Positions 6,941 to 24,252 of a stretch of 35,904 nucleotides of DNA are shown one piece after another. Location of the stretch: positions 1-35,904 of the IMG/VR virus record IMGVR_UViG_3300013132_005661, one strand, 5' to 3'. A program made the position numbers and the translations under genes. The stretch's first letter is position 1. Each line of letters begins with the position of its first letter. The notes beneath the pieces are model-generated. The model was not told where the DNA came from and did no database searches. It saw only the letters and a program-made list of their open reading frames with translations. The DNA is from a virus.

Positions 6941-7012
6941 TTAATTCTCTCCCATTATTTTAACAAGATAAACTAAAACTGCAATACAAAAAATAAGTTC
7001 TATTAAAGTCAT
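6941..7012 (-). CDS. Single-span membrane micropeptide, 23 residues
   Basis: ATG 7012 overlaps the epimerase stop as ATGA, and the frame ends at TAA 6941, 1 nt before the next gene. The product is MTLIELIFCIAVLVYLVKIM plus Gly-Glu-Asn: a glutamate near the start, one uninterrupted hydrophobic helix (residues 3-17) and a lysine-bearing tail, as in a single-span membrane peptide. The exact fit between two genes, the 4-nt stop/start overlap and the next gene's ribosome site lying inside it all argue for a real gene. Function unknown; a membrane anchor or a regulator of envelope glycan enzymes is conceivable. Confidence 0.55.
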   Translation of the reverse strand: MTLIELIFCIAVLVYLVKIMGEN

Positions 7013-8001
7013 AGATAGTTCATTTTTTCTATCCATGAATATGTTTTACTAAGACCAATTTCTAAGGGTTGAGAAGGGGCCCATCCGAGTTTTTCTTTTA
7101 TTAACTTATTATCTGAGTTTCTACCTCTAACTCCTGTAGGGCCTTTAATATGTTTTTTAACTAGGCTTTTGCCAGCAATTTTAGATACAATATCGACAAG
7201 CTGATTAATAGAAACTTTTTCTTCCGATCCAATATTAACAGGCCCTTCAAAATTAGATTCCATTAACTTTATTACCCCATCGAGACACTCATCTATGTAA
7301 AGAAAACTTCTTGTTTGCTCTCCGTCACCCCAAATTTCTATTTCACCACCATTTACAGCCTGAGCCACTTTTCTACAAATAGCGGCAGGTGCTTTTTCCT
7401 TACCATTATTCCATGAACCTAGAGGACCAAAAATATTATGAAATCTAGCTATTTTTACATCTAACCCATAATTGCGTTTGTAAGCAAGATAAAGACGTTC
7501 ACTAAAGAGCTTTTCCCAACCATATTCACTATCTGGATTTGCAGGGTACGCAGAACTTTCTTCGCAATTTGGATTGTTAGGATCTAATTGATTATGCTCG
7601 GGGTACATACAAGCACTGCTGCTATAAAAAACTTTCTTTACATTAAATTTAGCAGCTAGATCTACCACGTTTAAATTAATAGATGCTGAATTATGCATTA
7701 CATCAGCATCATGTTCCCCGGTAAAAATATATCCTGCACCTCCCATATCTGCTGCTAATTGATAAATTTCATCTACATATATTTCTTTACTATTTGTATT
7801 ACTGTCCTTTAAGACGTATAAACTATCTTTTACTATTTGTCTATCTCTTAGATCTCCAACAATAAAATCGTCTGCTTGTGTATTGCTATATTCTGGAGAC
7901 TTTAAATCCACACCTCTAACCCAATATCCTTTTTCTTTCAATCGATTAACTAGATGGTTACCGATAAAACCCCCCGCTCCACATACTAATGCATATTTCA
8001 T
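7009..8001 (-). CDS. GDP-mannose 3,5-epimerase-like enzyme
   Basis: This 330-residue extended short-chain dehydrogenase matches plant-type GDP-mannose 3,5-epimerase (GDP-D-mannose to GDP-L-galactose). It has the NAD-binding GAGGFIG (8-14), AADMGGAGYI (84-92), SSSACMYPE (127-135), YGWEK (Y160, K164), RFHNIFGP, EKAPAA (K203), GDGEQTRSF and a GVRGRNSDN block near 295. Cys131 and Lys203 line up with the acid/base pair known from Arabidopsis GME (Cys145, Lys217). The start ATG 8001 overlaps the preceding gene (ATGA). A UDP-sugar or other epimerase is less likely, because the AADMGG and RGRNSDN blocks are specific to this group. It would supply an L-sugar donor to the transferases upstream. Confidence 0.85.
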   Translation of the reverse strand: MKYALVCGAGGFIGNHLVNRLKEKGYWVRGVDLKSPEYSNTQADDFIVGDLRDRQIVKDSLYVLKDSNTNSKEIYVDEIYQLAADMGGAGYIFTGEHDADVMHNSASINLNVVDLAAKFNVKKVFYSSSACMYPEHNQLDPNNPNCEESSAYPANPDSEYGWEKLFSERLYLAYKRNYGLDVKIARFHNIFGPLGSWNNGKEKAPAAICRKVAQAVNGGEIEIWGDGEQTRSFLYIDECLDGVIKLMESNFEGPVNIGSEEKVSINQLVDIVSKIAGKSLVKKHIKGPTGVRGRNSDNKLIKEKLGWAPSQPLEIGLSKTYSWIEKMNYL

Positions 8002-8840
8002 AAAATATATTTCTTAATTATTTTAGCTAAAGAATCATCAGATGAAAGGTATTCTTTTGCTTTTTCAAAATTATTTTTTATTGACCCAACTTTAGACATG
8101 TATGTATCTTTAGATAGTTTAAGATTAGCTATATCATCCAAGCTGTTAAAAGCTATGATCCCGTTTATATCAAAATAATCACCAATATTAGGGCATCCCC
8201 AATAGATGGGAATACACCCTGTTACAAGCGCATCAATTAATTTTTCGGTAAAATAATTATAATGTTGACAGTTTTCTATAACGAACGAAAACTTATAATT
8301 TTTAAGAGAATCAATTTTATCAAAAATATGTCCTGTTTTAGTACCGCCTCCAAAACCATCTATACCCTGCACTTGTCTGTAAATAGTATGTCTTAATTGT
8401 TGTCCAGGTAAGAATGTTTTACCGGAAAGAATAATAGAGCAGTTTTTAGTTTTTTCGTTTTCATATAGACCGTGCTCGGATTCATTAATCCAAGTACCAC
8501 CTACGATTGCAGGTAAGTATTTTTTAGGGTTTTTTTCTAATAAATCTTTTCTAAAGGTAAGTATATAATCTAACCGATCTTCTATTTTTTCTAGATGTTG
8601 GGTAACCTGCGGTTTTACAGCAGGCGATTCTAAGCACCAGCCTACCTTTATCTTTGTTTTAACCTGATCGGGGAAATCACTATACATAAACTCGTCACTG
8701 AATACAGTGATGCCATCATAAGACATTAATTTTTCTTTATATGATATAAGAGTTGGCTTTCTGTCTTTGGTAGAAGTAAGAAACCCATTCTCATTTAAAG
8801 AATGTCCGAACGTACCGTCAAATAGATTAACTTGTAACAT
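7998..8840 (-). CDS. Glycosyltransferase family 10 (alpha-1,3-fucosyltransferase-like)
   Basis: This 280-residue protein carries the GT10 signature at 182-223: YKFSFVIEN, then FTEKLIDALVTGCIPIYWG and PNIGDYF. This is the GDP-fucose-binding part of bacterial alpha-1,3/1,4-fucosyltransferases. The N-terminal half is the acceptor domain, with GWCLESPA near 67-74. It has no membrane segment, so it is probably cytoplasmic. The start ATG 8840 is in a TAATG overlap with the upstream gene. The family normally uses GDP-L-fucose; next to a GDP-mannose 3,5-epimerase the donor could be GDP-L-galactose, which has the same ring configuration (inference). Confidence 0.85.
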   Translation of the reverse strand: MLQVNLFDGTFGHSLNENGFLTSTKDRKPTLISYKEKLMSYDGITVFSDEFMYSDFPDQVKTKIKVGWCLESPAVKPQVTQHLEKIEDRLDYILTFRKDLLEKNPKKYLPAIVGGTWINESEHGLYENEKTKNCSIILSGKTFLPGQQLRHTIYRQVQGIDGFGGGTKTGHIFDKIDSLKNYKFSFVIENCQHYNYFTEKLIDALVTGCIPIYWGCPNIGDYFDINGIIAFNSLDDIANLKLSKDTYMSKVGSIKNNFEKAKEYLSSDDSLAKIIKKYIL

Positions 8841-9703
8841 TACCCTGCCATCCCATAATCAATATGATTATCAATAAATTCATAATCATAATTATCACGC
8901 AACAAAATATTTAAAATAGATACATTACTTTTCATACAAAGACTGTATTTGCAAGCAGCCATTATAAAAACATCTGTTAACATATCTACACCTAATTTAA
9001 ATTTCTTATTGTCATCATTATATGCGTTTGAGTAATGCAGACCACTATCTGAACCAGGAGGAATTAAATCAGCATTATATTTCATTAAAATACTGCCAAA
9101 ATCGTTTTTAATATTATCATATGTTTCTTGTTCATCTGTAGCTAAAAAAATCTTATCACACTTCTTATCTTTTAGAGCTTTTTCAATAGCCGGTTTAATA
9201 ATAGCTTTATAATCCATTAAATGTTTTTGACCCGCCGCATGTCCTCCGGAACCAAAATGATCGGTACCTCTTTTATGTATGGATAGGACATTTTGCATAT
9301 TATAATTGTTTTTTATAAAAACTTTGCTTATTTCAGCTATGTCGTCTTTTACTTTAAAATATTTTTTAACTATTTTTCTTAAAGGATTAACAAAATTTGA
9401 ATCTAAAAATTGATCTTTATTTTGATCTTTTCCGTAGCTCAATAAAAACTGCCCGCACTTGTACCAGCAGTTTTCTTGTACATAAGAACCAGAATTAAAT
9501 AGTTCTTTTATTTCATCTTTTTTATATTCAAAAGGCTGATAAAAAAACCTGTTCCAAGTATTACCGCTATTTGAATAAAGACGGTTTCTCATTTCAAAAT
9601 AAAGAATTTGATCCTTTTCTATATATTGAAGATTATGAATTACACGTAAAATAGTAGAACCAAGCCCTACAGCTGAATCATCCTGTATTATTTTAAGCTT
9701 CAT
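8840..9703 (-). CDS. Putative fucosyltransferase-like protein (GT23/NodZ-like)
   Basis: This 287-residue protein resembles GT-B fucosyltransferases of the NodZ/FUT8/O-FucT group. It has SIHKRGTDH (141-149; the family motif is HxRRxD), IFLATDE (186-191) and DMLTDVFIMAACKYSLCMKSN (about 240-260), which fits the conserved motif III that ends in a Ser/Asn pair. The first His-Lys-Arg differs from the usual His-x-Arg-Arg by one residue. The gene precedes GT10 with a TAATG overlap and follows the methyltransferase by 18 nt. The exact GT family is uncertain; the role as a GDP-sugar-dependent transferase is more secure. Confidence 0.65.
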   Translation of the reverse strand: MKLKIIQDDSAVGLGSTILRVIHNLQYIEKDQILYFEMRNRLYSNSGNTWNRFFYQPFEYKKDEIKELFNSGSYVQENCWYKCGQFLLSYGKDQNKDQFLDSNFVNPLRKIVKKYFKVKDDIAEISKVFIKNNYNMQNVLSIHKRGTDHFGSGGHAAGQKHLMDYKAIIKPAIEKALKDKKCDKIFLATDEQETYDNIKNDFGSILMKYNADLIPPGSDSGLHYSNAYNDDNKKFKLGVDMLTDVFIMAACKYSLCMKSNVSILNILLRDNYDYEFIDNHIDYGMAG

Positions 9704-9721
9704 TTTTTAAAAATATTTGAG

Positions 9722-10315
9722 TTAAAATATTCGGATAGTTTTCATGTTTACGAATAATGTCTTAATATTATTAGTACGCACTAAAGTAAAATTAAACTGT
9801 TCAATTGTTTGTTTCAGTGAATCGTCATTGAAATACCATATATGTTCATCTACTTTTCTATGCTTCCATTTAGTAAACCACTCGTCAGAAAAATAATGGC
9901 ACCAAGGTAAACTTACAACTAGCCATCTACATTTTAAATCTTTTAAAAAATCAATTGAACTAAAGTGTTCTAAACAGTCAAAAAAAGTTATAACTTCATA
10001 AAACTGTTCAGTTATATCTTTTACAAATTTTATATGTTCTGGTAAAGGATAAGCCGGTTCAATATCGTTACCATAACAATTAGGAATAATTTTAGAACAC
10101 CACTCAAGAAAATTACCGTTACCGTAACCTATATCTAAAATAGAATGTGGTATATAGCCGGTAGTACCTAAAATATTACCTAACCTCAAACACGACATTG
10201 AATTATTATCTATTTTGTTATACGCTTTTTCAACATAATTATAATCATATTGAAACGGTTTTATATTTACCTGTTTAATAGCACCGGTAGGAAGAAGCTC
10301 GTAATTGTCTATCAC
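9722..10315 (-). CDS. SAM-dependent methyltransferase
   Basis: This 197-residue class I methyltransferase has motif I ILDIGYGNGNF (about 58-68), an acidic end of strand 2 (GNDIEP) and motif IV-like FFDCLEHF. It starts with GTG at 10315, overlapping the preceding stop by 4 nt (GTGA). Because it sits among glycosyltransferases it may methylate a sugar or an intermediate. A DNA or protein substrate cannot be excluded, and no target-recognition domain is visible. Confidence 0.75.
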   Translation of the reverse strand: MIDNYELLPTGAIKQVNIKPFQYDYNYVEKAYNKIDNNSMSCLRLGNILGTTGYIPHSILDIGYGNGNFLEWCSKIIPNCYGNDIEPAYPLPEHIKFVKDITEQFYEVITFFDCLEHFSSIDFLKDLKCRWLVVSLPWCHYFSDEWFTKWKHRKVDEHIWYFNDDSLKQTIEQFNFTLVRTNNIKTLFVNMKTIRIF

Positions 10316-11031
10316 AGCGTTTCAAAATACTCTACGTTATTAAAATAAAAATACGGTTTTTGTTGTTCTAGAGTATAACTAGAATGAGGCGGGAAATAAC
10401 AATTAATATTTTCGTTTTTTATAGCAGCTGCTAACACCATCGAACCACTATACAAACAAACAAACTGATGTGAAGAATGAATAATATCTGAATATTCGTA
10501 TATATCATTAAATTCTATAGTCTGATGTTCAAATAAAGGCTGGGGAATATCTTTATTTTTAGGTTTTAAAATATAAAAATTATCTTTTGAGTATTTTGTA
10601 CCTATAATTTTCTTTAATACATCGCTTTTATAATTTTGAGCTGTAGTAATTGAAGTAAGATCGGCAACTACTTTTTTGCTATGTTCTTTTAATGTTTTTG
10701 GTTTGTAATAAATTTTAGGTCTAGGATAATCATTATCTGTATTTAAGCCGTGAACTATTTCCCATTTTTTTAAAATATTACAAGGACGGTCCCATGCGCT
10801 TTTTGGTATAGAGCCAAATAAATTACCTCCAATATTACCCGGTTCGTTTTTTATGCCTTTTATAAACGGGTTTTTATTCCAAACAATATCACCTATTTCA
10901 GAATTTCTTACAACGTTATTAGATGAAATATAAATGTCCTTTCCTATATTTGAGTAATGTTCTGGTAATGTTGAGAATTGAAGATTGTCGCCTAGCCCGC
11001 CCCAGGACTGTGATAAAACCAAATATTCCAT
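10312..11031 (-). CDS. Possible GT-B (GT9-like) glycosyltransferase
   Basis: This protein of 239 residues starts at ATG 11031 (an upstream in-frame TTG at 11037 is possible). It begins with a short strand and a Gly-rich loop (SWGGLGDNLQFSTLPEHY), as in heptosyltransferase-type GT-B proteins. The C-terminal half has IHSSHQFVCLYSGSMVLAAAI, resembling the part of GT9 that contacts the nucleotide sugar. The rest is unlike anything I can name. AATAAATT, a one-base variant of the late box, ends 5 nt before ATG 11031. Its place in the glycan cassette is the main support. Confidence 0.45.
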   Translation of the reverse strand: MEYLVLSQSWGGLGDNLQFSTLPEHYSNIGKDIYISSNNVVRNSEIGDIVWNKNPFIKGIKNEPGNIGGNLFGSIPKSAWDRPCNILKKWEIVHGLNTDNDYPRPKIYYKPKTLKEHSKKVVADLTSITTAQNYKSDVLKKIIGTKYSKDNFYILKPKNKDIPQPLFEHQTIEFNDIYEYSDIIHSSHQFVCLYSGSMVLAAAIKNENINCYFPPHSSYTLEQQKPYFYFNNVEYFETL

Positions 11032-11060
11032 ATACAAATTTATTAATGTATCGAACTATT

Positions 11061-11900
11061 TCAATAATCGTGTTTTTTGTAAAAGTCAGCTACACGCTGC
11101 AATCCTTCATCAATAGACACCTTGGGCTTCCAGAAATTTAAAATATATGGATCCGGTTCATTCTTTTTATTTAGCTGAACGGTGTCTATGCTATTGGACG
11201 GTATCACTTTAGTTTCTGGAAACATACTCGCTATTTTTTGCGCAATATCAATAATTTTATACCATTCAAAATTAGTTATATGTAATTCTTTATCGTTAGG
11301 AATATCGTTATAATGTTCTGCAACAGTTTCTAAACATCTACAACAATCTTCACTATATAAAAGCTGTCTTTCTTCTTGACCATCTGTGAGCATATCAATA
11401 ACGCCTGTTTTCTTAGCTTTTAAAATAAAATCAGTGATAGCATGGGCTTTTTTCATATCTTTTTCTATGCCATAAACGTTCCAGAATTTTACAATCTTTC
11501 CATTTAAACTTTTCGTATAGTATTCACCAAGAGCTTTTGAAACACCATATGGAGAATAACTCATATTAGACATTTGAGAAGAAGCAAAAATAAACGGCTT
11601 TTTAAAAATTTTAAGATAATAAAATACGTTTGTTATAATACGAGAATTATTATCAATAAATTCGTATGTATACTGATATTCTTTTAAGTATCTCGAGCCC
11701 CCTACATCAAATGCTAAGAAATAAACAAAATCTGCATTTCGAATATAGTTACTAACAGTTATGTTATCGTATTCTCTTAAATCGTGAAACGGTGAAAGCA
11801 CAACATCTAAACCGATAACATTATGTCCTTTTTGTTGTAAATATTCTTCTAAAGGCTTACCAATTTGACCCTCAGATCCGAGTATTAAAATATTTTTCAT
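11061..11900 (-). CDS. NAD-dependent sugar epimerase/dehydratase
   Basis: This 279-residue extended short-chain dehydrogenase has the cofactor loop GSEGQIG (8-14), an AFDVGGS segment near 63-69, FASSQMS (105-111) and the catalytic pair YGVSK (Y118, K122), then KFWNVYG. I chose ATG 11900 because it overlaps the upstream stop as ATGA and puts the Rossmann strand at the N-terminus; a longer frame to 11936 would overlap the GT11 gene. It belongs to the NDP-sugar epimerase/4,6-dehydratase group, but its substrate cannot be read from sequence. The cassette therefore has two sugar-nucleotide enzymes. Confidence 0.8.
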   Translation of the reverse strand: MKNILILGSEGQIGKPLEEYLQQKGHNVIGLDVVLSPFHDLREYDNITVSNYIRNADFVYFLAFDVGGSRYLKEYQYTYEFIDNNSRIITNVFYYLKIFKKPFIFASSQMSNMSYSPYGVSKALGEYYTKSLNGKIVKFWNVYGIEKDMKKAHAITDFILKAKKTGVIDMLTDGQEERQLLYSEDCCRCLETVAEHYNDIPNDKELHITNFEWYKIIDIAQKIASMFPETKVIPSNSIDTVQLNKKNEPDPYILNFWKPKVSIDEGLQRVADFYKKHDY

Positions 11901-12742
11901 AGAACAGTCCAGCCATCTACAAAAACATCTTCCCAATCTTTCCAGCTAACCGGCTTAAACCAAACATCTTCTCCAAACCAGTTACGCGGGCATATTACTT
12001 TTTCTTTTTTCTTACCTAGATATGCCCCCCACCAACCAAATGAGCTATTTGAAATAATATTTTTATCAGCAATAGAAGCAATATAAAGATCATACAATTC
12101 ACTTAAACCACCCCCTTTATGATCATGAAAAAAGTTAAATCCAGATTGAAAGAAGAAAACATTTTTTTGTGTAAAATTATATCGACACCAATCTGGAGTA
12201 TCGGTGATAATAATAAAACACGTATCACTATCATTGCAGATTTCGTAGGCTTTATTAAAAAACTCTAATGGCTGAACCGGGTGTATTTTAGGAAGTAACG
12301 TATATTCACCTCTACGCACATGCATTACTGTTACTTTGTTTTTCTCTGAAACATTTTTAATAGACCGTACTTTTTTATCTACTGCTTCTTTAAGAGAAGG
12401 GTCGAAATAAAACATATTTTTAACATCTTCTCGGTATTCTAAAAAATACTTTTCTGTTTGAAAGTAACCATCAACAATTAAGTTTTCTTTTGTTTTAGGT
12501 ATTTCAACATAGTTAAATTTCGGTTCATTATATACTTCAAAATCTGGTACTTTAAAATCTATAATAGGTATATTTTTAAAAATATTATCTTTGTATTTTA
12601 AATGAGGAAATCCTTGGCCAGAATAATGTTTAATGTTATAGTCAATCCCATAGCTGTCCTTAAATTTTTTCGATAAAGCTAAAGCTGTTCCTATTTGGAA
12701 CATTTGATTACCCAGTCCCCCTTTAAGTCGTGCTGTTATCAT
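11897..12742 (-). CDS. Glycosyltransferase family 11 (alpha-1,2-fucosyltransferase-like)
   Basis: This 281-residue protein is a clear GT11 member: GGLGNQMFQ at 8-16, HVRRGEY at 141-147 (GDP-fucose-binding HxRRxD/E type motif) and SNSSFGWWGAYL at about 231-242. Bacterial members transfer L-fucose to galactose of O-antigen or milk-type glycans. It starts at ATG 12742, which shares a TAATG overlap with the preceding gene; an upstream TTG would add two residues. It is the best-supported transferase in the cassette. Confidence 0.9.
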   Translation of the reverse strand: MITARLKGGLGNQMFQIGTALALSKKFKDSYGIDYNIKHYSGQGFPHLKYKDNIFKNIPIIDFKVPDFEVYNEPKFNYVEIPKTKENLIVDGYFQTEKYFLEYREDVKNMFYFDPSLKEAVDKKVRSIKNVSEKNKVTVMHVRRGEYTLLPKIHPVQPLEFFNKAYEICNDSDTCFIIITDTPDWCRYNFTQKNVFFFQSGFNFFHDHKGGGLSELYDLYIASIADKNIISNSSFGWWGAYLGKKKEKVICPRNWFGEDVWFKPVSWKDWEDVFVDGWTVL

Positions 12743-13494
12743 TACCAATTCTTAATATACGTCTTTAATTCTTCCAGAGGCATATGTGTGATTTTTGTAA
12801 CTTCATTAATATTATTTTGTGTGTAGTCATTATAGTTAAATGACGTGTTACCACGAAAATGATTTAAATGAAGAAGGACACCATCTGTTCTACCGATTTT
12901 AAATCCTAATCTTCTAAAACGCATTAAAAATTCATCATCATCATAACCCACGTTTTTAAAGTTAGGATTACATTTACCACCTTGTACAAAAGAATCTTTA
13001 GAAAAGACTGCACACCCACCCCACGAGCTCTTATTAAACAGAGTACATGTTTTTAACTCTACCGGGGTATTTAGATCTGTAACAAGCTTGGTTACAGTAT
13101 CTGCTGGTATATCAAAAAAATTTCCATCATATGGATACACTACATCATACTGCTCATTTTCTATCATTGTAGCAGCAGAAATTAAGCTTTTTTTGCTTAC
13201 TAGTACATCTACATCATACCAACTTGCTATACTATTGTCTGTACTCGATTGGAATAATTCGTTGATACATTTCATTTTATTAAAGTAATCCTGCTCATTT
13301 TTAAATGCTGTAAATTTGTATTGAGAGTATTTCTTAGTTAATAATTCTGTCTTAGGTTTTTCTTTATAATACTCCCGGACTAATACATTAGTAAATTGAG
13401 CTTTCGAAAGATATTCTAAAACAATAGATAAATTTCGTAAACGATCTTCGTGATCGATAGAAACAGGAATTAAAATATCAATTTTTGATAGCAT
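12742..13494 (-). CDS. GT-A glycosyltransferase, galactosyltransferase-like C-terminus
   Basis: This 250-residue GT-A protein opens with a strand ending ILIPVSIDHEDR, has a metal-binding DVD (94-96, in SWYDVDVLVS), then WGGCAVFSKDSF and the acidic GYDDDEFLMRFRRLGFKIGR (about 182-201). The last part resembles the catalytic block of GT7/GT27-type galactosyl- and GalNAc-transferases, where the ED/DD pair acts as base. It overlaps the upstream transferase by 17 nt and the GT11 gene by 1 nt. Donor and acceptor are not deducible. Confidence 0.75.
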   Translation of the reverse strand: MLSKIDILIPVSIDHEDRLRNLSIVLEYLSKAQFTNVLVREYYKEKPKTELLTKKYSQYKFTAFKNEQDYFNKMKCINELFQSSTDNSIASWYDVDVLVSKKSLISAATMIENEQYDVVYPYDGNFFDIPADTVTKLVTDLNTPVELKTCTLFNKSSWGGCAVFSKDSFVQGGKCNPNFKNVGYDDDEFLMRFRRLGFKIGRTDGVLLHLNHFRGNTSFNYNDYTQNNINEVTKITHMPLEELKTYIKNW

Positions 13495-14296
13495 ATTTCT
13501 TATATATTTTTTTTAATATCTCTTTGACGTCTTTTTCAGAGGTATCTGGTACAGAGTTTTGCCACGCAGGAGAATATCCGTGCTTTTCAAGAAACAATTT
13601 TGCACCGTTCATTATATTAGATCGCCAATCCGATCTTGGTCTTATAGCGCTACTCTTTTCAGAGCATTCTATCTCATCAAGATAATTACAACTATTAGCA
13701 ATATCAGCAAAATTCCAATATGGGGTTGTATATCCTGCTTTTGCAATTCTGTAATCGTGCTCTACATGTTCAAACGCGTTTGTAAAAGCCTCATCTATTA
13801 AACCTACTTTTTCTAATACTTCTTTTGTATAATAGCTAAAAGCACCAACACTATGCATATTAATGGCTATTTTTACTTCACCATAATCTACAATAAACCG
13901 GGGCACGGGTTTACCTCCAGAAATACCTTCTTTATTTGCAGGACCGTGATAACCAAAGTTAAAATGTTGTATACCTGTTATATTTCTCGCGCGTATGTAT
14001 TCTTTAAAAACATTTGCATCTTTTACAATAATGTCATCTTCAATAATAAAAATATGATCACAATCATTACCGAGTAAATAGCGCATTAATTTGTTTTTTG
14101 AACGACCCACACCTATATTTTTTTCATTATGAAGATAGACAAAACTTTTCTTTTTGTATAGTTTATCAATATCGGCAAAATCACTACCATCATTTACAAC
14201 GACAATATCTATAATGGAGTCCGGTATGCTTAATAAACACTTAAGAAAAAACGTAGGCCGATTGCATGTAACTATACCTACGCCAATTTTATTCAT
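13478..14296 (-). CDS. GT2-type glycosyltransferase
   Basis: This 272-residue GT-A protein begins with GVGIVTCNRP (5-14), the nucleotide-binding strand of GT2, followed by VVVNDGSD (32-39) and a metal-binding EDD (86-88, in FIIEDDIIV). A later FEHVEHDYRIAKAGY segment fits the acceptor side. I chose ATG 14296; a longer frame to 14383 would run across the divergent promoter and into the opposite gene. It is the first gene of the minus-strand glycan cassette. Confidence 0.8.
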   Translation of the reverse strand: MNKIGVGIVTCNRPTFFLKCLLSIPDSIIDIVVVNDGSDFADIDKLYKKKSFVYLHNEKNIGVGRSKNKLMRYLLGNDCDHIFIIEDDIIVKDANVFKEYIRARNITGIQHFNFGYHGPANKEGISGGKPVPRFIVDYGEVKIAINMHSVGAFSYYTKEVLEKVGLIDEAFTNAFEHVEHDYRIAKAGYTTPYWNFADIANSCNYLDEIECSEKSSAIRPRSDWRSNIMNGAKLFLEKHGYSPAWQNSVPDTSEKDVKEILKKIYKKYAIKN

Positions 14297-14316
14297 ATGG
14301 GCTTCCAATATTTTAA

Positions 14317-14324
14317 TATAAATA
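14317..14324 (+). promoter_or_regulatory. T4-type late promoter TATAAATACTATAA
   Basis: TATAAATA at 14317-14324 continues as CTATAA directly to ATG 14331. T4 late promoters have the consensus TATAAATACTATT, so this is a very close match. With the usual distance, transcription would begin at or next to the ATG, leaving no room for a ribosome-binding site. Confidence 0.75.
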
Positions 14325-14330
14325 CTATAA

Positions 14331-15044
14331 ATGGCAAACAACGCATCAAACAGTAATTTTGTAAATATTTCACAGCTCCCCACTGTTCCTGAATTAGTAG
14401 ACGGTGATTTGCTTATAGTACAAACTGAACAAGGTACACAAACAATTACTTTTGATCAGTTAAACGTTGTAAAGACCGATACAGGCAAAAATGCTACCAT
14501 AATGGGTACAACATGTGCTCAAGATATTTTTGCAAATTCAATTACGTTAGCAGCAAATATTTCTGCAAACAATTTTGTTAGTAATGGCCAACCAGGCACT
14601 TCTTTAGTTAATGGTTATTACAATAAGTTTATTTTTACAGGAGGCGTTTGTACAAGCGCTGATTACGTAACAGGCTCACCGGAATATAGTGATCTGAGAA
14701 ATAATTTTGTACCATCTGTTACTTCATATCTTGACAATATTTTTACCCGTGCTTACGTTGCTTACGGAACAGGAATTATTCAAAGCAATAATCAATACCA
14801 AACCGTGACAGTTTCAACTCCTTTACCCGCCAACTTAGCTTATACTGATATTGTAGAAGCAGATATTAGTTTAGTTCTTAATCCTGCCTTCACATCCGTA
14901 ATGCCTCTACTGTCCGGTATGTTGTATGTTACAAATATTATTAATGCACCGAACAATTGCTTTTCGTTTGATGTGTACCATACACAGGCACAGAGATTAA
15001 ATTTTAATCTTGGATTTAAATATAAAGTTACTAAGTTCTACTGA
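14331..15044 (+). CDS. Putative tail fibre/virion structural protein
   Basis: This 237-residue protein is rich in Asn, Thr, Ser and Ala. It opens with ISQLPTVPELVDGDLLIVQT and a QTITFDQL strand, a pattern common at the start of marine phage fibre and appendage proteins. The remainder has repeated beta-type stretches and few charged residues. The strong late promoter in front fits a virion protein. It is the only plus-strand gene here and its 3' end overlaps the opposing gene by 7 nt. No chaperone or receptor domain is recognised. Confidence 0.65.
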   Translation: MANNASNSNFVNISQLPTVPELVDGDLLIVQTEQGTQTITFDQLNVVKTDTGKNATIMGTTCAQDIFANSITLAANISANNFVSNGQPGTSLVNGYYNKFIFTGGVCTSADYVTGSPEYSDLRNNFVPSVTSYLDNIFTRAYVAYGTGIIQSNNQYQTVTVSTPLPANLAYTDIVEADISLVLNPAFTSVMPLLSGMLYVTNIINAPNNCFSFDVYHTQAQRLNFNLGFKYKVTKFY

Positions 15045-16047: not shown

Positions 16048-16737
16048 GTGGAAACTTTTGATTCAGTTGACAACGTTGCTCTAGAAAAAAGAATTACTAA
16101 GTCGTACCCGGACATTATTATTGACGATTTATATGAATATGTTTTTAACGTATCAACAGACCAGCAAAAGAGTGCTTTAATTCAAAAATTAAAAACAATT
16201 TCTATGTTACATAATGATACTTTACTCCTTTTAAAATTATTTGGAAAGCTAAGTAAGAAAGGTATTTTAGATCTCGGTGCTTATGTTGGTGGAGGGAGCA
16301 TTGCTATGGCATTAGAAGCTTCTGTACCTGTTATTGCCGTAGAAACAGGCGGTTCATTTGTTAATCAACCCTCGCTTCCTTCAAAAGACATCTTAAACGA
16401 TTTTATTGAAAATATAGTACAATGGGACGTTGATAGAAAAATATCACTTATAACAGGTAAATCTTTTGAAGAAATAAATGTAAAAAAAATTAAATTAAGA
16501 TTACCAGAAATTGATTTACTGTTAATTGATTCAGATGGTGATATTGAAAGAGATTTAAATTGTTATAATGATATTTTAGTAAACAAATGCATCGTTGTAA
16601 TAGATGATTATGTTAGTTCTGATCAAAAAAGTAAAATAGTGAGAGCAGCTGTTGACAATCTGGTAAATGAAAAACGATTAGAGCCTTTTGGAGTTTTTAT
16701 GTGGGGCACTTGGTTTGGAAAGTATCTTAAACCTTAA
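16048..16737 (+). CDS. Class I SAM-dependent methyltransferase
   Basis: This protein has 229 residues if it starts at GTG 16048; an in-frame TTG at 16015 is the alternative. Any longer frame would run into the opposing ATPase gene. It has motif I GILDLGAYVGGGSIAMA, an AVETGG strand-2 end and LLLIDSDGDIERDL, followed by VVIDDYVS, the layout of Methyltransf_24/TylF-like enzymes in which the acidic pair may bind metal. The substrate is unknown. No -10 box of the common type precedes it. Confidence 0.65.
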   Translation: METFDSVDNVALEKRITKSYPDIIIDDLYEYVFNVSTDQQKSALIQKLKTISMLHNDTLLLLKLFGKLSKKGILDLGAYVGGGSIAMALEASVPVIAVETGGSFVNQPSLPSKDILNDFIENIVQWDVDRKISLITGKSFEEINVKKIKLRLPEIDLLLIDSDGDIERDLNCYNDILVNKCIVVIDDYVSSDQKSKIVRAAVDNLVNEKRLEPFGVFMWGTWFGKYLKP

Positions 16738-17473
16738 GAGCTTTATCCCATATAACAAGCTGTAAGCGTGGGCTAAATTTAAAATTATATTTTTTACAAA
16801 GATCAGCTACCACCGGGCACTGTACTGTATGCTCTGCCCGGCTACCACAGCATGGCATTAACCAAATTCTATTAACCGGGACATTACAGTCGTAAACATA
16901 TTTCTCTAAAATTTCACGTATTTCATTTTCACCGCTCACTACAAATTTAAAACCTGAACCATTTTTTACATGCCATTTAAGAACCTCTGGTTTATATCTC
17001 CGTTCAACCGGATCTCCGTTATTTGAAAGTTTAGGCGATGTTGTAAATGTTGCTTTCCATTTTTCTTTCCATGCAGGGTCCGGTATAATCGTGGCATTCG
17101 TTTCAAAATCTATGTGAGGTACAAATCCATAACGCTCAGAAAAAGCTTGTACTAATTCTAATAAATTCTTTTGCTGTATTAAAGGTTCACCCCCTGTAAT
17201 TTTCCATATAGCACCGTCTTTTAAATAACAGTTATATTTGTTTTGAGACATATACTCAAATATTTCATCAAACGTCATACGGTTTTTAACGGACCAGCTT
17301 ACAAAGCTATCACAACCGTGTGGTGAATCCGATGAAGCAAAACCTTTACATGTTAAGTTACACATCGATAAACGCATAAATACCGATGGTCTCCCTACAA
17401 ATTCACCTTCTCCCTCGATTGTATAAAAAATCTTATCATCACTAAGGAAAATATAAGAATTCTCGCTCATCAT
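16727..17473 (-). CDS. queE: 7-carboxy-7-deazaguanine synthase QueE
   Basis: This 248-residue radical-SAM enzyme converts CPH4 to 7-carboxy-7-deazaguanine on the way to preQ0. It has the QueE start FYTIEGEGEFVGRPSVFMRLS, a cluster motif spread as CNLTC then GCDS (C-x3-C-x11-C, not the usual C-x3-C-x2-C), the SAM-binding ITGGEPL (about 92-98) and a C-terminal block ending FSPRLQLVIW. The widened cysteine spacing fits a QueE subgroup that carries an insert before the CDS/T motif. The start is ATG 17473 or ATG 17470. Its 3' end overlaps the methyltransferase by 11 nt. Confidence 0.9.
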   Translation of the reverse strand: MMSENSYIFLSDDKIFYTIEGEGEFVGRPSVFMRLSMCNLTCKGFASSDSPHGCDSFVSWSVKNRMTFDEIFEYMSQNKYNCYLKDGAIWKITGGEPLIQQKNLLELVQAFSERYGFVPHIDFETNATIIPDPAWKEKWKATFTTSPKLSNNGDPVERRYKPEVLKWHVKNGSGFKFVVSGENEIREILEKYVYDCNVPVNRIWLMPCCGSRAEHTVQCPVVADLCKKYNFKFSPRLQLVIWDKALKV

Positions 17474-17520: not shown

Positions 17521-18252
17521 ATGTCAAAGCGGGAAAGACAGCTGAAAAAAGCTGCCCAAGATAGTAATAAATTCATTAAACCGGATCTTTTTCTTAATTT
17601 TAAAATAGATCAAAAGTTCCATTTTAATGAACACCATAAAGCTTTTGTAGAGAAAGCTTTTGACGACTCTACACACATAATATTTTGTGACGGTCCTGCA
17701 GGATCTTCAAAGACATATTGTGCAGTATATGTGGCTTTGACATTATTAAAAGAAAAGAAAATAGACGAGATTATTTACATTAGAAGTATTGTAGAATCTG
17801 CTACTAGAAAATTAGGTAGTTTACCCGGTGAGGTAGATGAAAAATTTAAACCATGGAGCATACCTCTCATAGAGAAATGTGATGAACTTATTGGTAAACA
17901 ACTAACAAATATTCTATTTGAAAATGATTATGTAAAAAGTATACCTGTTAATTTCTTAAGAGGCTCTACATTTATGAATAGTGTGGTAATTGTAGACGAG
18001 GCACAAAACTTAGAACATAGTGAATTAGTTACAATTCTAACTAGATATGGAAAGAATTGTAAGTTGTTTGTAATAGGCGACTCTTTACAATCCGACATAC
18101 ATAAATCTGGTTTTCAAAGTATTATGAAAGGATTTGACACTGTAGAAAGTAAAGAGCACGGAATACAAACATTTCATTTTACTGAAGACGACATAACCCG
18201 AAGTAAGCTTTTAAAATTTATAGTACGCGTAATAGCAACAATTAAAAAATAA
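17521..18252 (+). CDS. phoH: PhoH-like ATPase
   Basis: This 243-residue protein has the PhoH core: Walker A GPAGSSKT (58-65), RSIVESATRKLGSLPG (88-103) and Walker B VVIVDEAQN (155-163), then GDSLQSDIHKSG. PhoH-like genes are widespread in marine phages; the cellular protein is an ATPase linked to RNA metabolism, and the phage role is unproven. It is followed by the fibre-like gene at 18261, with its own late-type box overlapping the phoH end. Confidence 0.9.
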   Translation: MSKRERQLKKAAQDSNKFIKPDLFLNFKIDQKFHFNEHHKAFVEKAFDDSTHIIFCDGPAGSSKTYCAVYVALTLLKEKKIDEIIYIRSIVESATRKLGSLPGEVDEKFKPWSIPLIEKCDELIGKQLTNILFENDYVKSIPVNFLRGSTFMNSVVIVDEAQNLEHSELVTILTRYGKNCKLFVIGDSLQSDIHKSGFQSIMKGFDTVESKEHGIQTFHFTEDDITRSKLLKFIVRVIATIKK

Positions 18253-18260: not shown

Positions 18261-20498
18261 ATGAGAGTTGTAAACTTTACGCAAAGATATAGTTTGCTTA
18301 GTTTTAACAATACTTTTCCATATCCTCTTAATGATTATAATACCTATGTTGATTTTATAGCCGGAATTAATATTAGTAAAACAGGGTTTCAAGTTTATGA
18401 ACCGGGGTATCCTTCGCCTATTTCTCAGTTTCAACCTTTAACAGGATACATTATTGTAAAAAAACCTGGTTTAAATTTTTCTATGGTTCTTCCCACTGTA
18501 AATGTCCCACCAGTGACAAAAATTACAAAAAAATACAATATTTTGACGTTTCCGTATAGTACACCAGTTAATTTTGATATTTACAAAGAATATATTGAAA
18601 GTATATTAATACCGAGTAATAACGGAACTGGCTTTATTTCATATTCACCAGATTTTGCTTCTCCTTTTACAACGTTTGTCCCAGGATCTACTTATTTAAT
18701 AGTTGCAACTGGTAATTTTGATATAGAAAACCCCGTTGTAACACCTACATCTACCAGTACCCCGAATCCTACACCGTCTCTCACTCCTTCCTTTACCCCT
18801 ACTATAACACCTACAAACACTTGTACAAGCACTCCTCTGGAAACTATAACTGCAACTCCAACAATTACCCCTACCCCTTCAGTTACCGTTGGTATCACAC
18901 CAACGGTAACACCAACATTTACACCAACAAACACAACAACACCTTCTAATACACCATCCTTCACGCCGACACCCACACAAGCAATAATAATATTAGAAAC
19001 ACCGACCCCAACATCTACTTCTACCACTACCTTAACTTTTACACCCACACAATCTGTAACGGGAACACCGAGCGTTACAATGACAAAATCACCAACAAAA
19101 ACACCTGTTATAACCCCAGCTCCGACATCATCACCGACACCCACACCTTCGGTAACATTTCCCGGAACAGGTATTAATGTTGATGGAGGTGCTTCCGGTG
19201 ATCCGCATTTTCAGATGTCTTTGCAATCAATTGCTCCTGGTTCTGTTGTACATGTTTGTAGAAATACTAGGTTTGCAGGTATGACAGCAAAAGATAGTTT
19301 AAGAGATTTAGGTTTAAGCCAGACATATTTTTATTCATCGTCAGGCTCTTATAATGAAAATGAATGGCAAAATTATTTATCTGGAGGCAGCTTACCACGA
19401 AATGTAGATTTAAGACCTATACAAAATATTCAGAATATCGGGGATGTTAGTGTAGCAGGTTATGTACCTTCTTATGTTCTACACGTACCTTCTGGATATA
19501 ATTCCGAACTTTCAGGGACAATGGTAAGAGAATACTCAGATAGAGTAGAATTTTTATGCAAATCAAGCATTATATTAGATTACGCAGATTATAATTTAAA
19601 AATGTCTGTATACAGAACAGATATTACAACAAGTGATGTTGGATTACAAAACTTAATTACAAATATAAATGAAGGTATAGATGAAACTTACACCTTTTCG
19701 GTTTCAACAATAAACCCCGATAATACTATTTGGTGGTACGCAAATTTACCAAGATTTTCCTCAAATGAAAAAATAATTTATAAAATTAGTTGTTATAAAA
19801 AATTTGACGTCCCAGCACAAAATTTATATCGCCCTGGTCTAATTGCCGCCACCTGGGATGATAATGGCCCTAATTGTAGAGCAAATATGTTATTATTATA
19901 TATTAAAAAAGGAAATAGGTGGGTTGCAATGACGTACTCTTGCTATGCAGGGGGCCCTTCCCCTGCATCTGTTGTTGATACAGTTACAGTTTTTGGCAGT
20001 CATATACCCACCTATTTCGCCGGGCCAGGTGGCATTACTTCTATTTATGTTGAAGAAATGGGGTTTATTTTAAGAGGTCAAAGAGATTCTTTATCATTTA
20101 AAACGAACGGGAAGGTTGATTTTGATGAAATAGGAGGAGGCTTAGCATTAATATTAAGAAGAGTAATAATGGACGGGGCGTTTAATAGTGGATGGGGATC
20201 AACAGTTGATGGTTATTCTATAGCAGGACAACCATTTGGTATTTCAAGAATAGATCTAGAAAATGCAGCAACCGGTGGGTATGATTCACCTGCATGGAGA
20301 AAGGTAACATTTCCAGCTGTATTGTTCCCATCATCAGATTACAATGTAAGAGTTATTTCAAAACCATGTGCAAACCGTGATTTTAATAATTTTGCCTGGG
20401 ATCCATTAGAGCCTCGCCCACCACTTTTACCTGATGGTAGTAACCCCGGCGGTGGTGGAGGCGGTTATTCCATGGGAATAGGTATGTCTATATTGTAA
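18261..20498 (+). CDS. Large virion protein with tandem N-terminal domains and a Pro/Thr-rich linker
   Basis: This 745-residue protein has two similar N-terminal units (about 10-75 and 92-155): each opens with a YxxLxF/YxILTF strand, has a GF-xxY/S-P middle and ends in a GYIIV/TYLIV strand. Residues 158-300 are almost only Thr, Pro and Ser, a stalk-like linker. From GDPHF (about 313-317) to the end is a globular, beta-rich part with several Cys and a Gly-rich tail. This fits a tail fibre or surface decoration with a head-binding end, a stalk and a receptor-binding end, but I recognise no named family. A sugar transferase gene overlaps its stop by 1 nt (TAATG), so the fibre itself could be glycosylated. 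Confidence 0.7.
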   Translation: MRVVNFTQRYSLLSFNNTFPYPLNDYNTYVDFIAGINISKTGFQVYEPGYPSPISQFQPLTGYIIVKKPGLNFSMVLPTVNVPPVTKITKKYNILTFPYSTPVNFDIYKEYIESILIPSNNGTGFISYSPDFASPFTTFVPGSTYLIVATGNFDIENPVVTPTSTSTPNPTPSLTPSFTPTITPTNTCTSTPLETITATPTITPTPSVTVGITPTVTPTFTPTNTTTPSNTPSFTPTPTQAIIILETPTPTSTSTTTLTFTPTQSVTGTPSVTMTKSPTKTPVITPAPTSSPTPTPSVTFPGTGINVDGGASGDPHFQMSLQSIAPGSVVHVCRNTRFAGMTAKDSLRDLGLSQTYFYSSSGSYNENEWQNYLSGGSLPRNVDLRPIQNIQNIGDVSVAGYVPSYVLHVPSGYNSELSGTMVREYSDRVEFLCKSSIILDYADYNLKMSVYRTDITTSDVGLQNLITNINEGIDETYTFSVSTINPDNTIWWYANLPRFSSNEKIIYKISCYKKFDVPAQNLYRPGLIAATWDDNGPNCRANMLLLYIKKGNRWVAMTYSCYAGGPSPASVVDTVTVFGSHIPTYFAGPGGITSIYVEEMGFILRGQRDSLSFKTNGKVDFDEIGGGLALILRRVIMDGAFNSGWGSTVDGYSIAGQPFGISRIDLENAATGGYDSPAWRKVTFPAVLFPSSDYNVRVISKPCANRDFNNFAWDPLEPRPPLLPDGSNPGGGGGGYSMGIGMSIL
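18882..18910 (+). other. Perfect 12-bp inverted repeat inside the Pro/Thr-rich coding stretch
   Basis: GTTACCGTTGGT at 18882-18893 is followed by ATCAC and the exact reverse complement ACCAACGGTAAC at 18899-18910. The RNA would form a 12-bp hairpin with a 5-nt loop. No U-run follows, so it is not a standard terminator. It lies within codons for a Thr-Val/Thr-Pro repeat. Confidence 0.7.
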
Positions 20499-21310
20499 TG
20501 AAAAAATATATATGGACTTACTGGACAAAGCCGCAAGAACAAAGAAAATCTTTTTTTGATTTAGCGTGTCTAGGTCTTTCAACGTCACTAGTCAAAAAAC
20601 ACGGTTATGCTTATAAAATATATACAGATAAGTTTGGAGCCGCGCAAATACAAAATTTTAATATAGATGTTGATTTTGAAGTTTCTCTTGAATCTTTAGA
20701 AGGGGAAAATATAAAAAAATTTGCTCTTGCAAAAATAGATACCTATCAAAAAATTAATTTTGAATGCACCCATATAGACTATGATGTTTTTCTATGGGAC
20801 AGACCAAATAATTACGAGTCAGATTTTACAGTTCAATCTTTAGAACAATCTGACGAGTCAAAAAATTTTGATTTAACATATAAAACCAGTTACGAAGATT
20901 TTAAAAGTATTACTAATTACGTGCCTGCAGAAATAAAATTTTTTGCTGATAAAAATATTTACTCTGGGTATAATATGGGATATGTAGATATAAAGAATTT
21001 AGAGTTTTTTAACAAATATGCTAATATAGCTAGAAAAATGTTTGATGATTTGTCTATTATTAATAATATATATTTAAACTGTTTTGTAGAACAATTATTT
21101 TTTTATTGTATGACACAAACAGAGAACATTAAGGTATCGTGTTTATTAACTGAAAAAGTTGAAGCTTGGGATCGAGAAGCAGCAAATAAAAATTATACCC
21201 ATTTAATGGGAGAAAAAACAAGCAACAAATATAATACCTTTATTAAGGTATTAAACCAATTAAAGATTTATAACTTTAAATGTTACGAATCTATTTTTTC
21301 TCAACTTTAA
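20498..21310 (+). CDS. Putative glycosyltransferase (DUF6734-like)
   Basis: This 270-residue protein has a Trp-rich start (KKYIWTYWTKP), FALAKIDTYQKI and a metal-binding HIDYDVFLW (DxD type, about 92-100), then YSGYNMGYVDIKNLEFF. This order (strand, DxD with Trp after it, then a Gly/Tyr loop) is what I recall for DUF6734 and for capsular-sugar transferases of the GT-A fold. It shares a TAATG overlap with the large fibre-like gene, suggesting that the two are co-translated and that the fibre is its substrate (inference). Confidence 0.5.
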   Translation: MKKYIWTYWTKPQEQRKSFFDLACLGLSTSLVKKHGYAYKIYTDKFGAAQIQNFNIDVDFEVSLESLEGENIKKFALAKIDTYQKINFECTHIDYDVFLWDRPNNYESDFTVQSLEQSDESKNFDLTYKTSYEDFKSITNYVPAEIKFFADKNIYSGYNMGYVDIKNLEFFNKYANIARKMFDDLSIINNIYLNCFVEQLFFYCMTQTENIKVSCLLTEKVEAWDREAANKNYTHLMGEKTSNKYNTFIKVLNQLKIYNFKCYESIFSQL

Positions 21311-21491
21311 CATCTTTGTTATTTAAAATATTTCTCTGCTTTTGTTGAATTTTAGAATATATATCTTCTAATGCCTTACTATCATTTTTATAAGGTACTT
21401 TATCTTGAAGCTTGGGGTAATGGTCGGTTATTTCTCCACCATAAAGCTGTTGTTTAACCTCTGGATCCAGAGGCTTCTTATCTTGATTCAT
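21291..21491 (-). CDS. Hypothetical 66-residue protein
   Basis: A small charged protein with KPLDPEVKQQLYGGEITDHYPKL in its first half and a Lys/Gln-rich helical end. The start ATG 21491 overlaps the queD stop by 4 nt (ATGA), and the 3' end overlaps the opposite transferase by 20 nt. No motif recognised; it is most likely co-translated with queD. Confidence 0.55.
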   Translation of the reverse strand: MNQDKKPLDPEVKQQLYGGEITDHYPKLQDKVPYKNDSKALEDIYSKIQQKQRNILNNKDVKVEKK

Positions 21492-22135
21492 TTATTACCC
21501 CAGCTTGTACCGCCAAAGAGATTACTATACCCGGTGCTCTTCTTCGTATATAAAGGAGCAGCGCGAGGGTTTTCTGCAACCGGGTTATTTACCTGAGGTT
21601 GAACTTCAGGTTGTTCTTGTTTTAAATCTTCAACTGGTGTAGGGTTTGATATTACTGCGGGTATAGGTGAGCCAACAGAAATAGATGTAAGTACTGGTGC
21701 ATCTTCAAATATTGCTGAATTCTTTTCATGTTCCCACATTTCCACCTTAGTTACCCAACAGCGATCATTTGTCATTGCCCTTACATTTTTGTTAGCAATA
21801 TTAAATGCTTCTCTTGTGAATTTTTCGATACCTACACCGTAAGGAAAAACTCTTAAATCAACAATACCAAGTTTCGCTAAATGTTCAAATTCTTTTAGAT
21901 GTGGGTCATCTAAAGCAATACAAGTTGTGTGATCAAACATTCTTTGTAATTCTTTTTTGAGTTCATCTAAAGCACCGAAATCTACAACCCAACCTTTGTC
22001 ATCTAATTCATTACAAGAAAACCAAAATTTTGCAGTTAACCTGTAACCATGTACAAACTTACAATGACTTTCAGCTCTCCATTGACGAAATGCACAGCTT
22101 CCAAGTTCAACAACTTTAGTACTTTGATACTTCAT
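21488..22135 (-). CDS. queD: 6-carboxytetrahydropterin synthase QueD-like, with extended C-terminus
   Basis: This 215-residue protein converts dihydroneopterin triphosphate (from FolE) to CPH4, the QueE substrate. It has GSCAFRQWRAESHCKFVHGYRL (12-33), VDFG (51-54) and FDHTTC (67-72). In the standard family the zinc-binding motif reads HGH; here it is HGY, so one ligand seems replaced or moved. I chose ATG 22135, since the family begins just before this block; an upstream ATG at 22165 would add 10 hydrophobic residues. The last 65 or so residues are Pro/Glu/Val-rich and not part of the enzyme fold. Confidence 0.85.
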   Translation of the reverse strand: MKYQSTKVVELGSCAFRQWRAESHCKFVHGYRLTAKFWFSCNELDDKGWVVDFGALDELKKELQRMFDHTTCIALDDPHLKEFEHLAKLGIVDLRVFPYGVGIEKFTREAFNIANKNVRAMTNDRCWVTKVEMWEHEKNSAIFEDAPVLTSISVGSPIPAVISNPTPVEDLKQEQPEVQPQVNNPVAENPRAAPLYTKKSTGYSNLFGGTSWGNK

Positions 22136-22143
22136 AACGTTAA

Positions 22144-22170
22144 TTATAGTAATACAATAAAACAATCAAC
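22144..22170 (-). promoter_or_regulatory. Possible sigma-70-type promoter of queD
   Basis: On the minus strand TTGATT is followed after 15 nt by TATAAT, which ends 8 nt before ATG 22135. The match is good but the spacer is short and the region is AT-rich. It would start transcription at or next to the ATG. Confidence 0.35.
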
Positions 22171-23130: not shown

Positions 23131-23548
23131 TAGAAATAAATTCTCTATATAATTCGCAAATAGCTTGTGTTTCTAATCCTTTTTGTCTTAGTCCGGCTTC
23201 TAAGTCTTCTATTGTTTCAGCTTTAGAAAGACACTGTATAAAAGGATCACCGTCTTTGATCTCAAGCTTACCGTGTAAAAAGCACTTAAATTCATCTACA
23301 ACGTCAGTTTGTTGATCAGCAAGTATTGTTTCTAAGAATTCAGAAGGAATATCATCGAAAACAGGAAAATCTGGAGACAAGACTATAATTTTTGTTTTAC
23401 CCATTTTTTCTCTTAAAATGTAACCTTCATAACCATTACATTTGCTAAAATCAGTAGCACGGGTTATTTCCTTTGGATCTACTTTAATACGCACTCTTTT
23501 TAAAGAGCTCGATTCAAGCAATTTTGTCAGACATGAATTACCCTTCAT
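23117..23548 (-). CDS. Hypothetical protein, 143 residues
   Basis: Starts at ATG 23548, 6 nt after a GATAAATA box. It has a basic strand (RVRIKVDP), a GYEGYILREKMGKTKIIVLSPDFP barrel-like stretch near 38-61 and an acidic helical end. The early LTKLLESSS could be a targeting-like leader with an LLE site. Such SH3-like phage proteins have no agreed function. It is co-transcribed with the putative internal protein. Confidence 0.6.
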   Translation of the reverse strand: MKGNSCLTKLLESSSLKRVRIKVDPKEITRATDFSKCNGYEGYILREKMGKTKIIVLSPDFPVFDDIPSEFLETILADQQTDVVDEFKCFLHGKLEIKDGDPFIQCLSKAETIEDLEAGLRQKGLETQAICELYREFISNEQV

Positions 23549-23554
23549 CTATAT

Positions 23555-23562
23555 TATTTATC
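23555..23562 (-). promoter_or_regulatory. Late-type -10 box GATAAATA
   Basis: GATAAATA on the minus strand ends 6 nt before ATG 23548, in the 50-nt divergent gap to folE. Confidence 0.5.
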
Positions 23563-23598
23563 TTGAAAAACAACAAACCATTAATAAAAATTAACAAG

Positions 23599-24252
23599 AT
23601 GAGTAGAAAGAAGCTTGCTTTTGCGAATCATAATCACCCCGTCAACGAACAAGAAAAACACGATATTATAGAAAAGGCTGCAAAAGCATATGAGGCTTAC
23701 ATGGATGCACTTGGTTATGATTGGAGAAATGATCCCAATAGTGCAAATACACCCCACCGGGTAGCAAAGGCTTTTGTAGAAGATTTTGCCTGGGGTTGTT
23801 ATAGCGAGCCCCCGAAAGTTACAGCTTTTGACAATATTGATAATTACGACGGTATCGTAGCACAGACAAATATTAAACTAACATCTCTCTGTTCTCACCA
23901 CCATGCACCGTTTATGGGATTCGCTCACGTGGCATATATACCTGCTAAGAATGGTAAAGTGATTGGTTTGAGTAAACTAAACCGTATTGTAGATTGGTTT
24001 TCCCGGCGGCCACAAGTACAAGAAAATTTGACAATGCAAATTCATGATTATATAAATAGCGTCTGTAATAAAAATAACGGGGTAGCTGTGATGATTGAAG
24101 CCAATCATACTTGTTGTTCAAATCGCGGTATACGCCATGATTCTACTATGAGAACGGCTCGGATGTCCGGGGCGTTTTTAGATAATAACGACAATTCACG
24201 AAACGAGTTTTATAAGTTTATTGAGTTTGCGCAGAACAGAAAATTGATCTAA
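23599..24252 (+). CDS. folE: GTP cyclohydrolase I
   Basis: This 217-residue enzyme turns GTP into dihydroneopterin triphosphate, the first step towards both folate and preQ0. It shows PHRVAKAF (52-59), the zinc-binding CSHHHAPF (C98, H101) and the second zinc cysteine in HTCCSNRG (C172/C173), plus GLSKLNRIVDWFSRRPQVQE. I chose ATG 23599, since the family starts near here; a longer frame to 23524 would overlap the opposite gene. With QueD and QueE in this window it most likely feeds 7-deazaguanine synthesis. Confidence 0.93.
   Translation: MSRKKLAFANHNHPVNEQEKHDIIEKAAKAYEAYMDALGYDWRNDPNSANTPHRVAKAFVEDFAWGCYSEPPKVTAFDNIDNYDGIVAQTNIKLTSLCSHHHAPFMGFAHVAYIPAKNGKVIGLSKLNRIVDWFSRRPQVQENLTMQIHDYINSVCNKNNGVAVMIEANHTCCSNRGIRHDSTMRTARMSGAFLDNNDNSRNEFYKFIEFAQNRKLI

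Follow-up and report, generated by a model that had tools for sequence, protein, structure and literature searches.

Background

Two kinds of described system are close to the locus reported here. The first is the group of VWD domains that carry a GDPH motif. In FCGBP, D4080 and H4082 are the Asp and His of GDPH, the chain is cut between Asp and Pro, and the substitutions D4080A, D4080N and H4082N prevent or inhibit the cleavage (PMC10880436). VWD cleavage in mucins benefits from neighbouring residues and from the mildly acidic milieu of secretory compartments; for some VWDs the cut takes place at a pH close to neutral (PMC10880436). The second is virion glycosylation in mycobacteriophages, whose capsid and tail tube proteins were found by experiment to be glycosylated at their C-termini by phage glycosyltransferases (Freeman et al. 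2023, as cited in PMC12619734). A literature search, with subscription papers and preprints outside its scope, returned nothing on the protein family DUF6734 and nothing on VWD domains in phage fibres.

The DNA analysed here, called the window below, is the whole stretch of 35,904 nucleotides of the IMG/VR virus record IMGVR_UViG_3300013132_005661. Judged by gene content, the window phage is a T4-like myovirus, because the window carries portal, sheath stabiliser, clamp loader, helicase and SbcCD-like genes.

Organization of the fibre-like locus

Three genes follow one another on the plus strand, encoding a PhoH-like ATPase, a fibre-like protein and a DUF6734 protein (Table 1). The PhoH-like gene ends 8 nt 5' of the co-directional fibre-like gene, and it is likely the first gene of a short operon.

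The original prediction described a 745-residue ORF with two similar units of 65 residues and a Thr/Pro/Ser linker of 140 residues. The ORF is present, and the duplication is clear: the two N-terminal units share 25 identities in 78 positions (32%; BLASTP E-value 1e-12), and the score of 103 compares with a maximum of 60 among shuffles, none of 2000 being as good. The size of the units was underestimated, since they measure about 76–78 residues. No PDB match was found for them; presumably they resemble the GWNLISFP...PGxGYW repeats of bacterial surface proteins. The linker was also found, as a mucin-like stalk of 145 residues with 55 Thr, 30 Pro and 16 Ser (70% in total). Two candidates from this region were discarded: a match of the fibre-like protein to phrog_15511 (4e-8) covers the low-complexity linker only, and a 150-aa antisense ORF (18692–19144) is a by-product of the repetitive linker. 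For both the fibre-like protein and the DUF6734 protein, no direct relatives were found in GenBank phages, and none in single-sequence scans of IMG/VR.

Table 1. Position and evidence of the features in the window
Feature	Position	Strand	Evidence
Sugar-modification cluster, separate from fibre operon	7009..14383	-	Gene content
PhoH-like ATPase gene	17521..18252	+	Pfam PhoH 2.5e-48, phrog_170 3.8e-64
Fibre-like protein, 745 aa	18261..20498	+	ORF
N-terminal unit 1, aa 3-80	18267..18500	+	Self-alignment
N-terminal unit 2, aa 85-160	18513..18740	+	Self-alignment
Mucin-like Pro/Thr/Ser stalk, aa 160-304	18738..19172	+	Composition
First strand of VWD-like domain, aa 308-324	19182..19232	+	Alignment; model of relative
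GDPHF motif, aa 313-317	19197..19211	+	GDPH invariant in 12 relatives and window
Insertion of about 200 aa, first hairpin loop of VWD-like domain, aa 325-525	19233..19835	+	Absent from 12 of 12 relatives; boundaries approximate
Remainder of VWD-like domain, aa 526-672, with ATWDDN and DGYSIAGQPFG	19836..20276	+	HMM match aa 530-668; BLASTP 5e-7
C-terminal tail GIGMSIL of fibre-like protein	20475..20495	+	Likeness to GIGLSLL; lead only
TAATG stop/start overlap, 1 nt	20496..20500	+	Sequence
DUF6734 protein, 270 aa, probable GT-A type glycosyltransferase	20498..21310	+	Pfam PF20508 1.7e-25

Apart from this operon, the minus-strand cluster encodes two nucleotide-sugar epimerases, a GT10 (fucosyltransferase-type) protein, a methyltransferase, a glycosyltransferase phrog with a GT11-like N-terminus (by eye) and further glycosyltransferases, and it is a possible source of activated sugars for modification of the virion or the host surface. 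Genes that resemble QueE and QueD by eye, together with a GTP cyclohydrolase gene (phrog_2197), flank the fibre operon at 16727–17473, 21488–22165 and 23524–24252; they probably serve 7-deazaguanine DNA modification.

The DUF6734 protein

The overlap of stop and start codons suggests translational coupling of the fibre-like and DUF6734 genes. The product of the second gene matches PF20508 at 90.4 bits, compared with a curated cut-off of 27, over model positions 25–283 of 286. Across 31 viral DUF6734 sequences, K79, D94, D96, N159, E198, Q199 and H235 are invariant, and the conserved motifs are DxD, NxG, EQ and a C-terminal HxxxxK. We take these invariant residues to match the arrangement in GT8 and other metal-dependent GT-A enzymes, their roles being assigned by analogy. 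The GT-A assignment is argued from motifs because the protein has no sequence match in PDB, i.e. no solved relative, and its profile gave no hhalign match to six GT8 proteins (a small set). The protein is highly likely to be active as an enzyme. The expectation of a DxD transferase overlapping the fibre stop was supported by the TAATG junction, the family match and the invariant DxD.

Relatives of the C-terminal domain

For the C-terminal part of the fibre-like protein, no Pfam match and no PDB sequence match were found. Relatives were first found by scanning for DNA that codes for G-A-x-G-D-P-H-F, and more were added using the alignment. An HMM of 12 other phage proteins scores the C-terminal part of the window protein at 24.3 bits, while the best of 2000 shuffles reaches 8.1, and direct comparison with the relatives gives 5e-7 by BLASTP and 1.2e-6 by phmmer (small sets). 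The identity to the relatives is 26–31% in this domain. The landmarks GDPH[FML], ATWDDN, [IL]L[KR]RV and DG[YF]S[IV]AGxP[FY]G are collinear in the window and the relatives, and GDPH is invariant in all 13 phage sequences (12 relatives and the window). These alignments place the C-terminal part, as a diverged member, in a family from uncultured phages. When IMG/VR was scanned with the pattern DG[FY]S[IV]AGxP[FY]G, L005 was the only match. The original prediction regarded this region as an unrecognised end part with GDPHF at its beginning; the motif is indeed at the start, relatives of the region do exist, and both the VWD-like domain and the significance of GDPH went unrecognised in that first reading.

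The phage relatives start with MKNGKFFIVNGRAKxNPPKPPSPPLSSL, followed by VGxWGDPH. They contain a conserved domain of about 180 residues and then Thr-rich linkers and variable ends, with Laminin_G_3 in one of them, and their genes are located in structural-gene clusters (by eye). Compared with them, the window domain has about 200 extra residues between strands 1 and 2, and no relatives of this insertion were found.

Predicted fold and the GDPH motif

Structure prediction of the C-terminal part had been proposed as a check. It failed for the window's own sequence (AF2, pLDDT 37; model set aside). For a relative's homologous domain it succeeded, at pLDDT 84.8, and predicted a VWD-like beta-sandwich. 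When the relative's model was compared with 999 PDB chains by VIA-align, the top 21 rows were all VWD domains, at Z 8.2–11.0 over 110–136 residues, from MUC2 (the best, Z 11.0), MUC5AC, MUC5B, VWF, FCGBP and RGMB. Below these rows come a luciferase (Z 7.8), an insect pigment protein (7.1) and then unrelated GFP-like barrels (at most 3.7). Foldseek alone gave weak matches, the best at E 9e-3, with luciferase and MUC5AC among the top ones, and a BFVD search gave no convincing match. Pfam VWD (PF00094) has no match in the window protein, the relatives or the window's record, and hhalign against 74 bacterial VWDs aligned only 9 columns around GDPH, at 41% probability and with a phage profile of low diversity. 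From the model of the relative, we consider it very probable that the domain family has a VWD-like fold. The window's own domain is probably VWD-like as well, with somewhat less confidence, because its own model was set aside and its fold rests on homology at 26–31% identity.

In the relative's model, the first strand carries GDPH, and the motif is in register with the position that is cut in the self-cleaving VWD subgroup. In the row of FCGBP D10 (8qci), the alignment begins at Pro9 of the model's GDPH, opposite chain residue 4081, the residue next after D4080; therefore the phage GDPH would occupy the place of the FCGBP cleavage site. Since the motif stands where the VWDs of mucins, FCGBP and RGM cut themselves, maturation of the fibre into two chains is possible. 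A cut of the Asp-Pro bond that joins D314 and P315 (nt 19202/19203), made by the protein itself, is a tentative proposal by analogy, for which we see slightly less than an even chance. The alternative that GDPH is kept for the structure of the first VWD strand, with the fibre remaining a single chain, is likewise a serious but tentative one, falling a little below evens. It would agree with the production of phage proteins in the cytoplasm, whereas mucin cleavage is aided by the mild acidity of secretory compartments and by neighbouring residues (PMC10880436), and with the relatives, in which a cut would remove the first 38 residues only. However, all 13 sequences keep GDPH even though the relatives are so distant from the window, cleavage of FCGBP depends on the motif's Asp and His, and a near-neutral pH suffices for some VWDs (PMC10880436).

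Gene neighbourhoods of DUF6734

The genes upstream of DUF6734 were summarized for the window and 28 further viral loci. A Ser/Thr/Pro-rich gene stands immediately before DUF6734 in 4 of 21 cases, compared with 2 of 288 other ORFs (Fisher test with the window included, 2e-4); leaving out the window gives 3 of 20. In most viral loci the gene before DUF6734 is not Ser/Thr/Pro-rich; four DUF6734 genes adjoin a dUTPase-like gene (by eye) and others follow small proteins. One viral record (L100, 99–4707) contains five tandem DUF6734 genes and then a structural-looking gene.

The bacterial family that includes Dyadobacter was covered by 121 genomes. Among them, a lantibiotic dehydratase lies within 11 kb of 8 of 25 DUF6734 genes in 7 genomes, while 0.14 would be expected (binomial, about 1e-12). 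The Dyadobacter neighbours include LanB, GG-leader peptides, a radical SAM protein and a C39 transporter, and in L277 a GG-leader peptide gene begins 310 bases from DUF6734 on the opposite strand. The association with lantibiotic dehydratases therefore ties the family to modified peptides and fits peptide acceptors. The DUF6734 proteins of Dyadobacter-family bacteria are a candidate RiPP glycosyltransferase family, and we propose DUF6734 as a family of peptide or protein glycosyltransferases. DUF6734 genes of the Dyadobacter family within lanthipeptide-type clusters are seen at L266 8990–14133 and in L277–L281.

Phages with the GDPH domain also contain genes of Thr-rich proteins followed by overlapping GT2 genes, in L012 (TAATG, the junction of the window), L014 and L015 (11-nt overlaps). 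The exact pair of fibre and DUF6734 has no second copy in the sequence collections searched. Whether fibre and transferase stay together in other phages had been proposed as a check, and the outcome was negative: no DUF6734 was found in 10 records with a related C-terminal domain (some of them fragments), and the gene in front of the closest DUF6734 relative (49% identity) encodes an unrelated Cys-rich protein of 75 aa. By the refuting condition of the original prediction, a transferase apart from the fibre in relatives, this specific pair fails. Thus the exact pair is not conserved, but, as far as gene order indicates, a fibre with its own modifying enzyme recurs with other enzymes.

Further genes accompany fibre-like genes in these phages. 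The Thr-rich protein of L012 (7909–9750) has FGE-sulfatase-type and glycine-rich domains, and the overlapping GT2 gene comes after it. Short genes lie directly after fibre-like genes in L018 (9568–10666) and L020 (1154–1669); they look sulfotransferase-like by eye (TRSGS...VRDPIERF), and in L018 also oxygenase-like. The short L018 and L020 proteins have no Pfam match above the cut-off and no PDB match, and the sulfotransferase identity was not counted as evidence.

Proposed function of the gene pair

On the established elements (gene structure, duplication, linker, C-terminal homology, the predicted VWD fold of the relatives, invariant GDPH and catalytic-type residues), our best explanation is that the gene pair encodes a virion surface appendage and a dedicated modifying enzyme, a reading for which we see evenly balanced chances as a whole. 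The 745-aa fibre would have a pair of small repeat domains at the N-terminus, then an extended stalk of Pro, Thr and Ser, and at the C-terminal side a VWD-fold domain with an insert of about 200 aa in the first hairpin, and it would sit on the virion surface. The DUF6734 protein would be made by stop/start coupling and, as a glycosyltransferase, would modify the fibre polypeptide, most likely at Thr and Ser of the stalk, while the fibre would mature by an Asp-Pro cut at GDPH into two chains kept together by the fold. We slightly favour the fibre as the substrate of DUF6734; the stalk as the modified site is a plausible but somewhat doubtful choice. The earlier idea of a fibre with its own glycosyltransferase is partly supported: it gains from the DUF6734 residues, the Ser/Thr/Pro-rich upstream genes, the RiPP neighbours and the GT2 overlaps, and it loses from the lack of conservation of this pair.

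Another reading takes the Thr/Pro stretch as a spacer without modification, such as phage fibres and secreted enzymes commonly have, with DUF6734 and the sugar cluster targeting a host surface glycan or something else and the adjacency due to chance. In our view this is rather unlikely. The separate cluster of epimerases and glycosyltransferases in the window would suit such a spacer, as would the position of most viral DUF6734 genes, which do not come after fibres (four adjoin a dUTPase-like gene and others follow small proteins), and the unconserved fibre-DUF6734 pair. It would leave unexplained the enrichment of Ser/Thr/Pro-rich genes immediately upstream of DUF6734, the association of DUF6734 with peptide-modifying RiPP clusters, and the 1-base overlap, whose identical junction serves an unrelated transferase in L012.

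A last lead concerns the C-terminal tail of the fibre. The Cys-rich protein before the closest DUF6734 relative ends in GIGLSLL, similar to GIGMSIL of the window fibre, and like it overlaps the DUF6734 start; two further proteins upstream of DUF6734 end in GLGMEFLN and GGAIGLELL. The tail-bearing proteins are unrelated (window 20475–20495, L104 11746–11970, L102 4726–8463, L086 4829–5140). A loose tail pattern, defined after seeing the cases, matches 3 of 197 ORFs in three contigs, just these. In IMG/VR, a scan for the tail with TAATGAAR gave 12 matches, about the number expected by chance and all spurious, and the tail was rejected as a general signal. It could be an enzyme-recognition signal or conserved DNA at a module border. 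That the DUF6734 enzyme recognises or modifies this end of the upstream protein and not the stalk would fit these endings and the virion glycans reported at the C-termini of capsid and tail tube proteins in mycobacteriophages (Freeman et al. 2023, as cited in PMC12619734), but it is quite improbable, with a motif written post hoc, a scan at chance level and most DUF6734 neighbours lacking the tail.

Returning to the fibre with a modified stalk, the Thr/Pro stalk together with a GDPH-VWD domain gives the protein a mucin-like plan. Its furthest extension is a phage counterpart of a mucin, with the stalk O-glycosylated by the co-translated DUF6734 enzyme and the VWD domain cutting itself at GD/PH. 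The result would be a glycoprotein of two chains, which on meeting the host could shed, cross-link or re-arrange; taken as a whole, we judge this unlikely. If the proposals are true, DUF6734, a family of no known role, would receive a concrete function, and a VWD domain with a self-cleavage motif would enter the appendages of tailed phages. It would be a recurring rule in uncultured phages that the gene of a Thr/Ser-rich surface protein stands before that of a dedicated modifying enzyme, gene order would predict phage surface glycoproteins, and phage fibres and animal mucins would share a building plan.

Comparison with known systems

With the GDPH VWDs of mucins (MUC2, MUC5AC, MUC4), FCGBP and RGM, the phage domain has in common the predicted beta-sandwich and a GDPH at the domain start in the same register. 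Mucins also combine VWD with Pro/Thr/Ser-rich glycosylated regions, as in the stalk and domain plan of the fibre. The phage domain differs in being phage-encoded, without a Pfam VWD match and with sequence similarity undetectable beyond the motif; the window protein differs further by the insertion of about 200 aa in the first hairpin loop, and C8, TIL and E partner modules were not recognised in it.

Virion glycosylation in mycobacteriophages (Freeman et al. 2023, cited in PMC12619734) shares with the proposal for the window a phage glycosyltransferase that acts on a virion protein. The window has a fibre-like protein with a stalk and a DUF6734 enzyme, whereas the C-termini of capsid and tail tube proteins are concerned there. 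Within DUF6734 (PF20508), a family without described function, the window protein is a clear member (1.7e-25).

Further counterparts are the Thr-rich IMG/VR phage proteins with a GDPH domain (L005–L007 and L012–L020). They share with the window the VWD-like domain, the Thr-rich low-complexity linker and, in several cases, downstream transferase genes. In contrast to the window, their domain is N-terminal, with the linker and then variable ends behind it (Laminin_G in one of them), the enzyme is GT2 and not DUF6734, and the hairpin is without the insertion.
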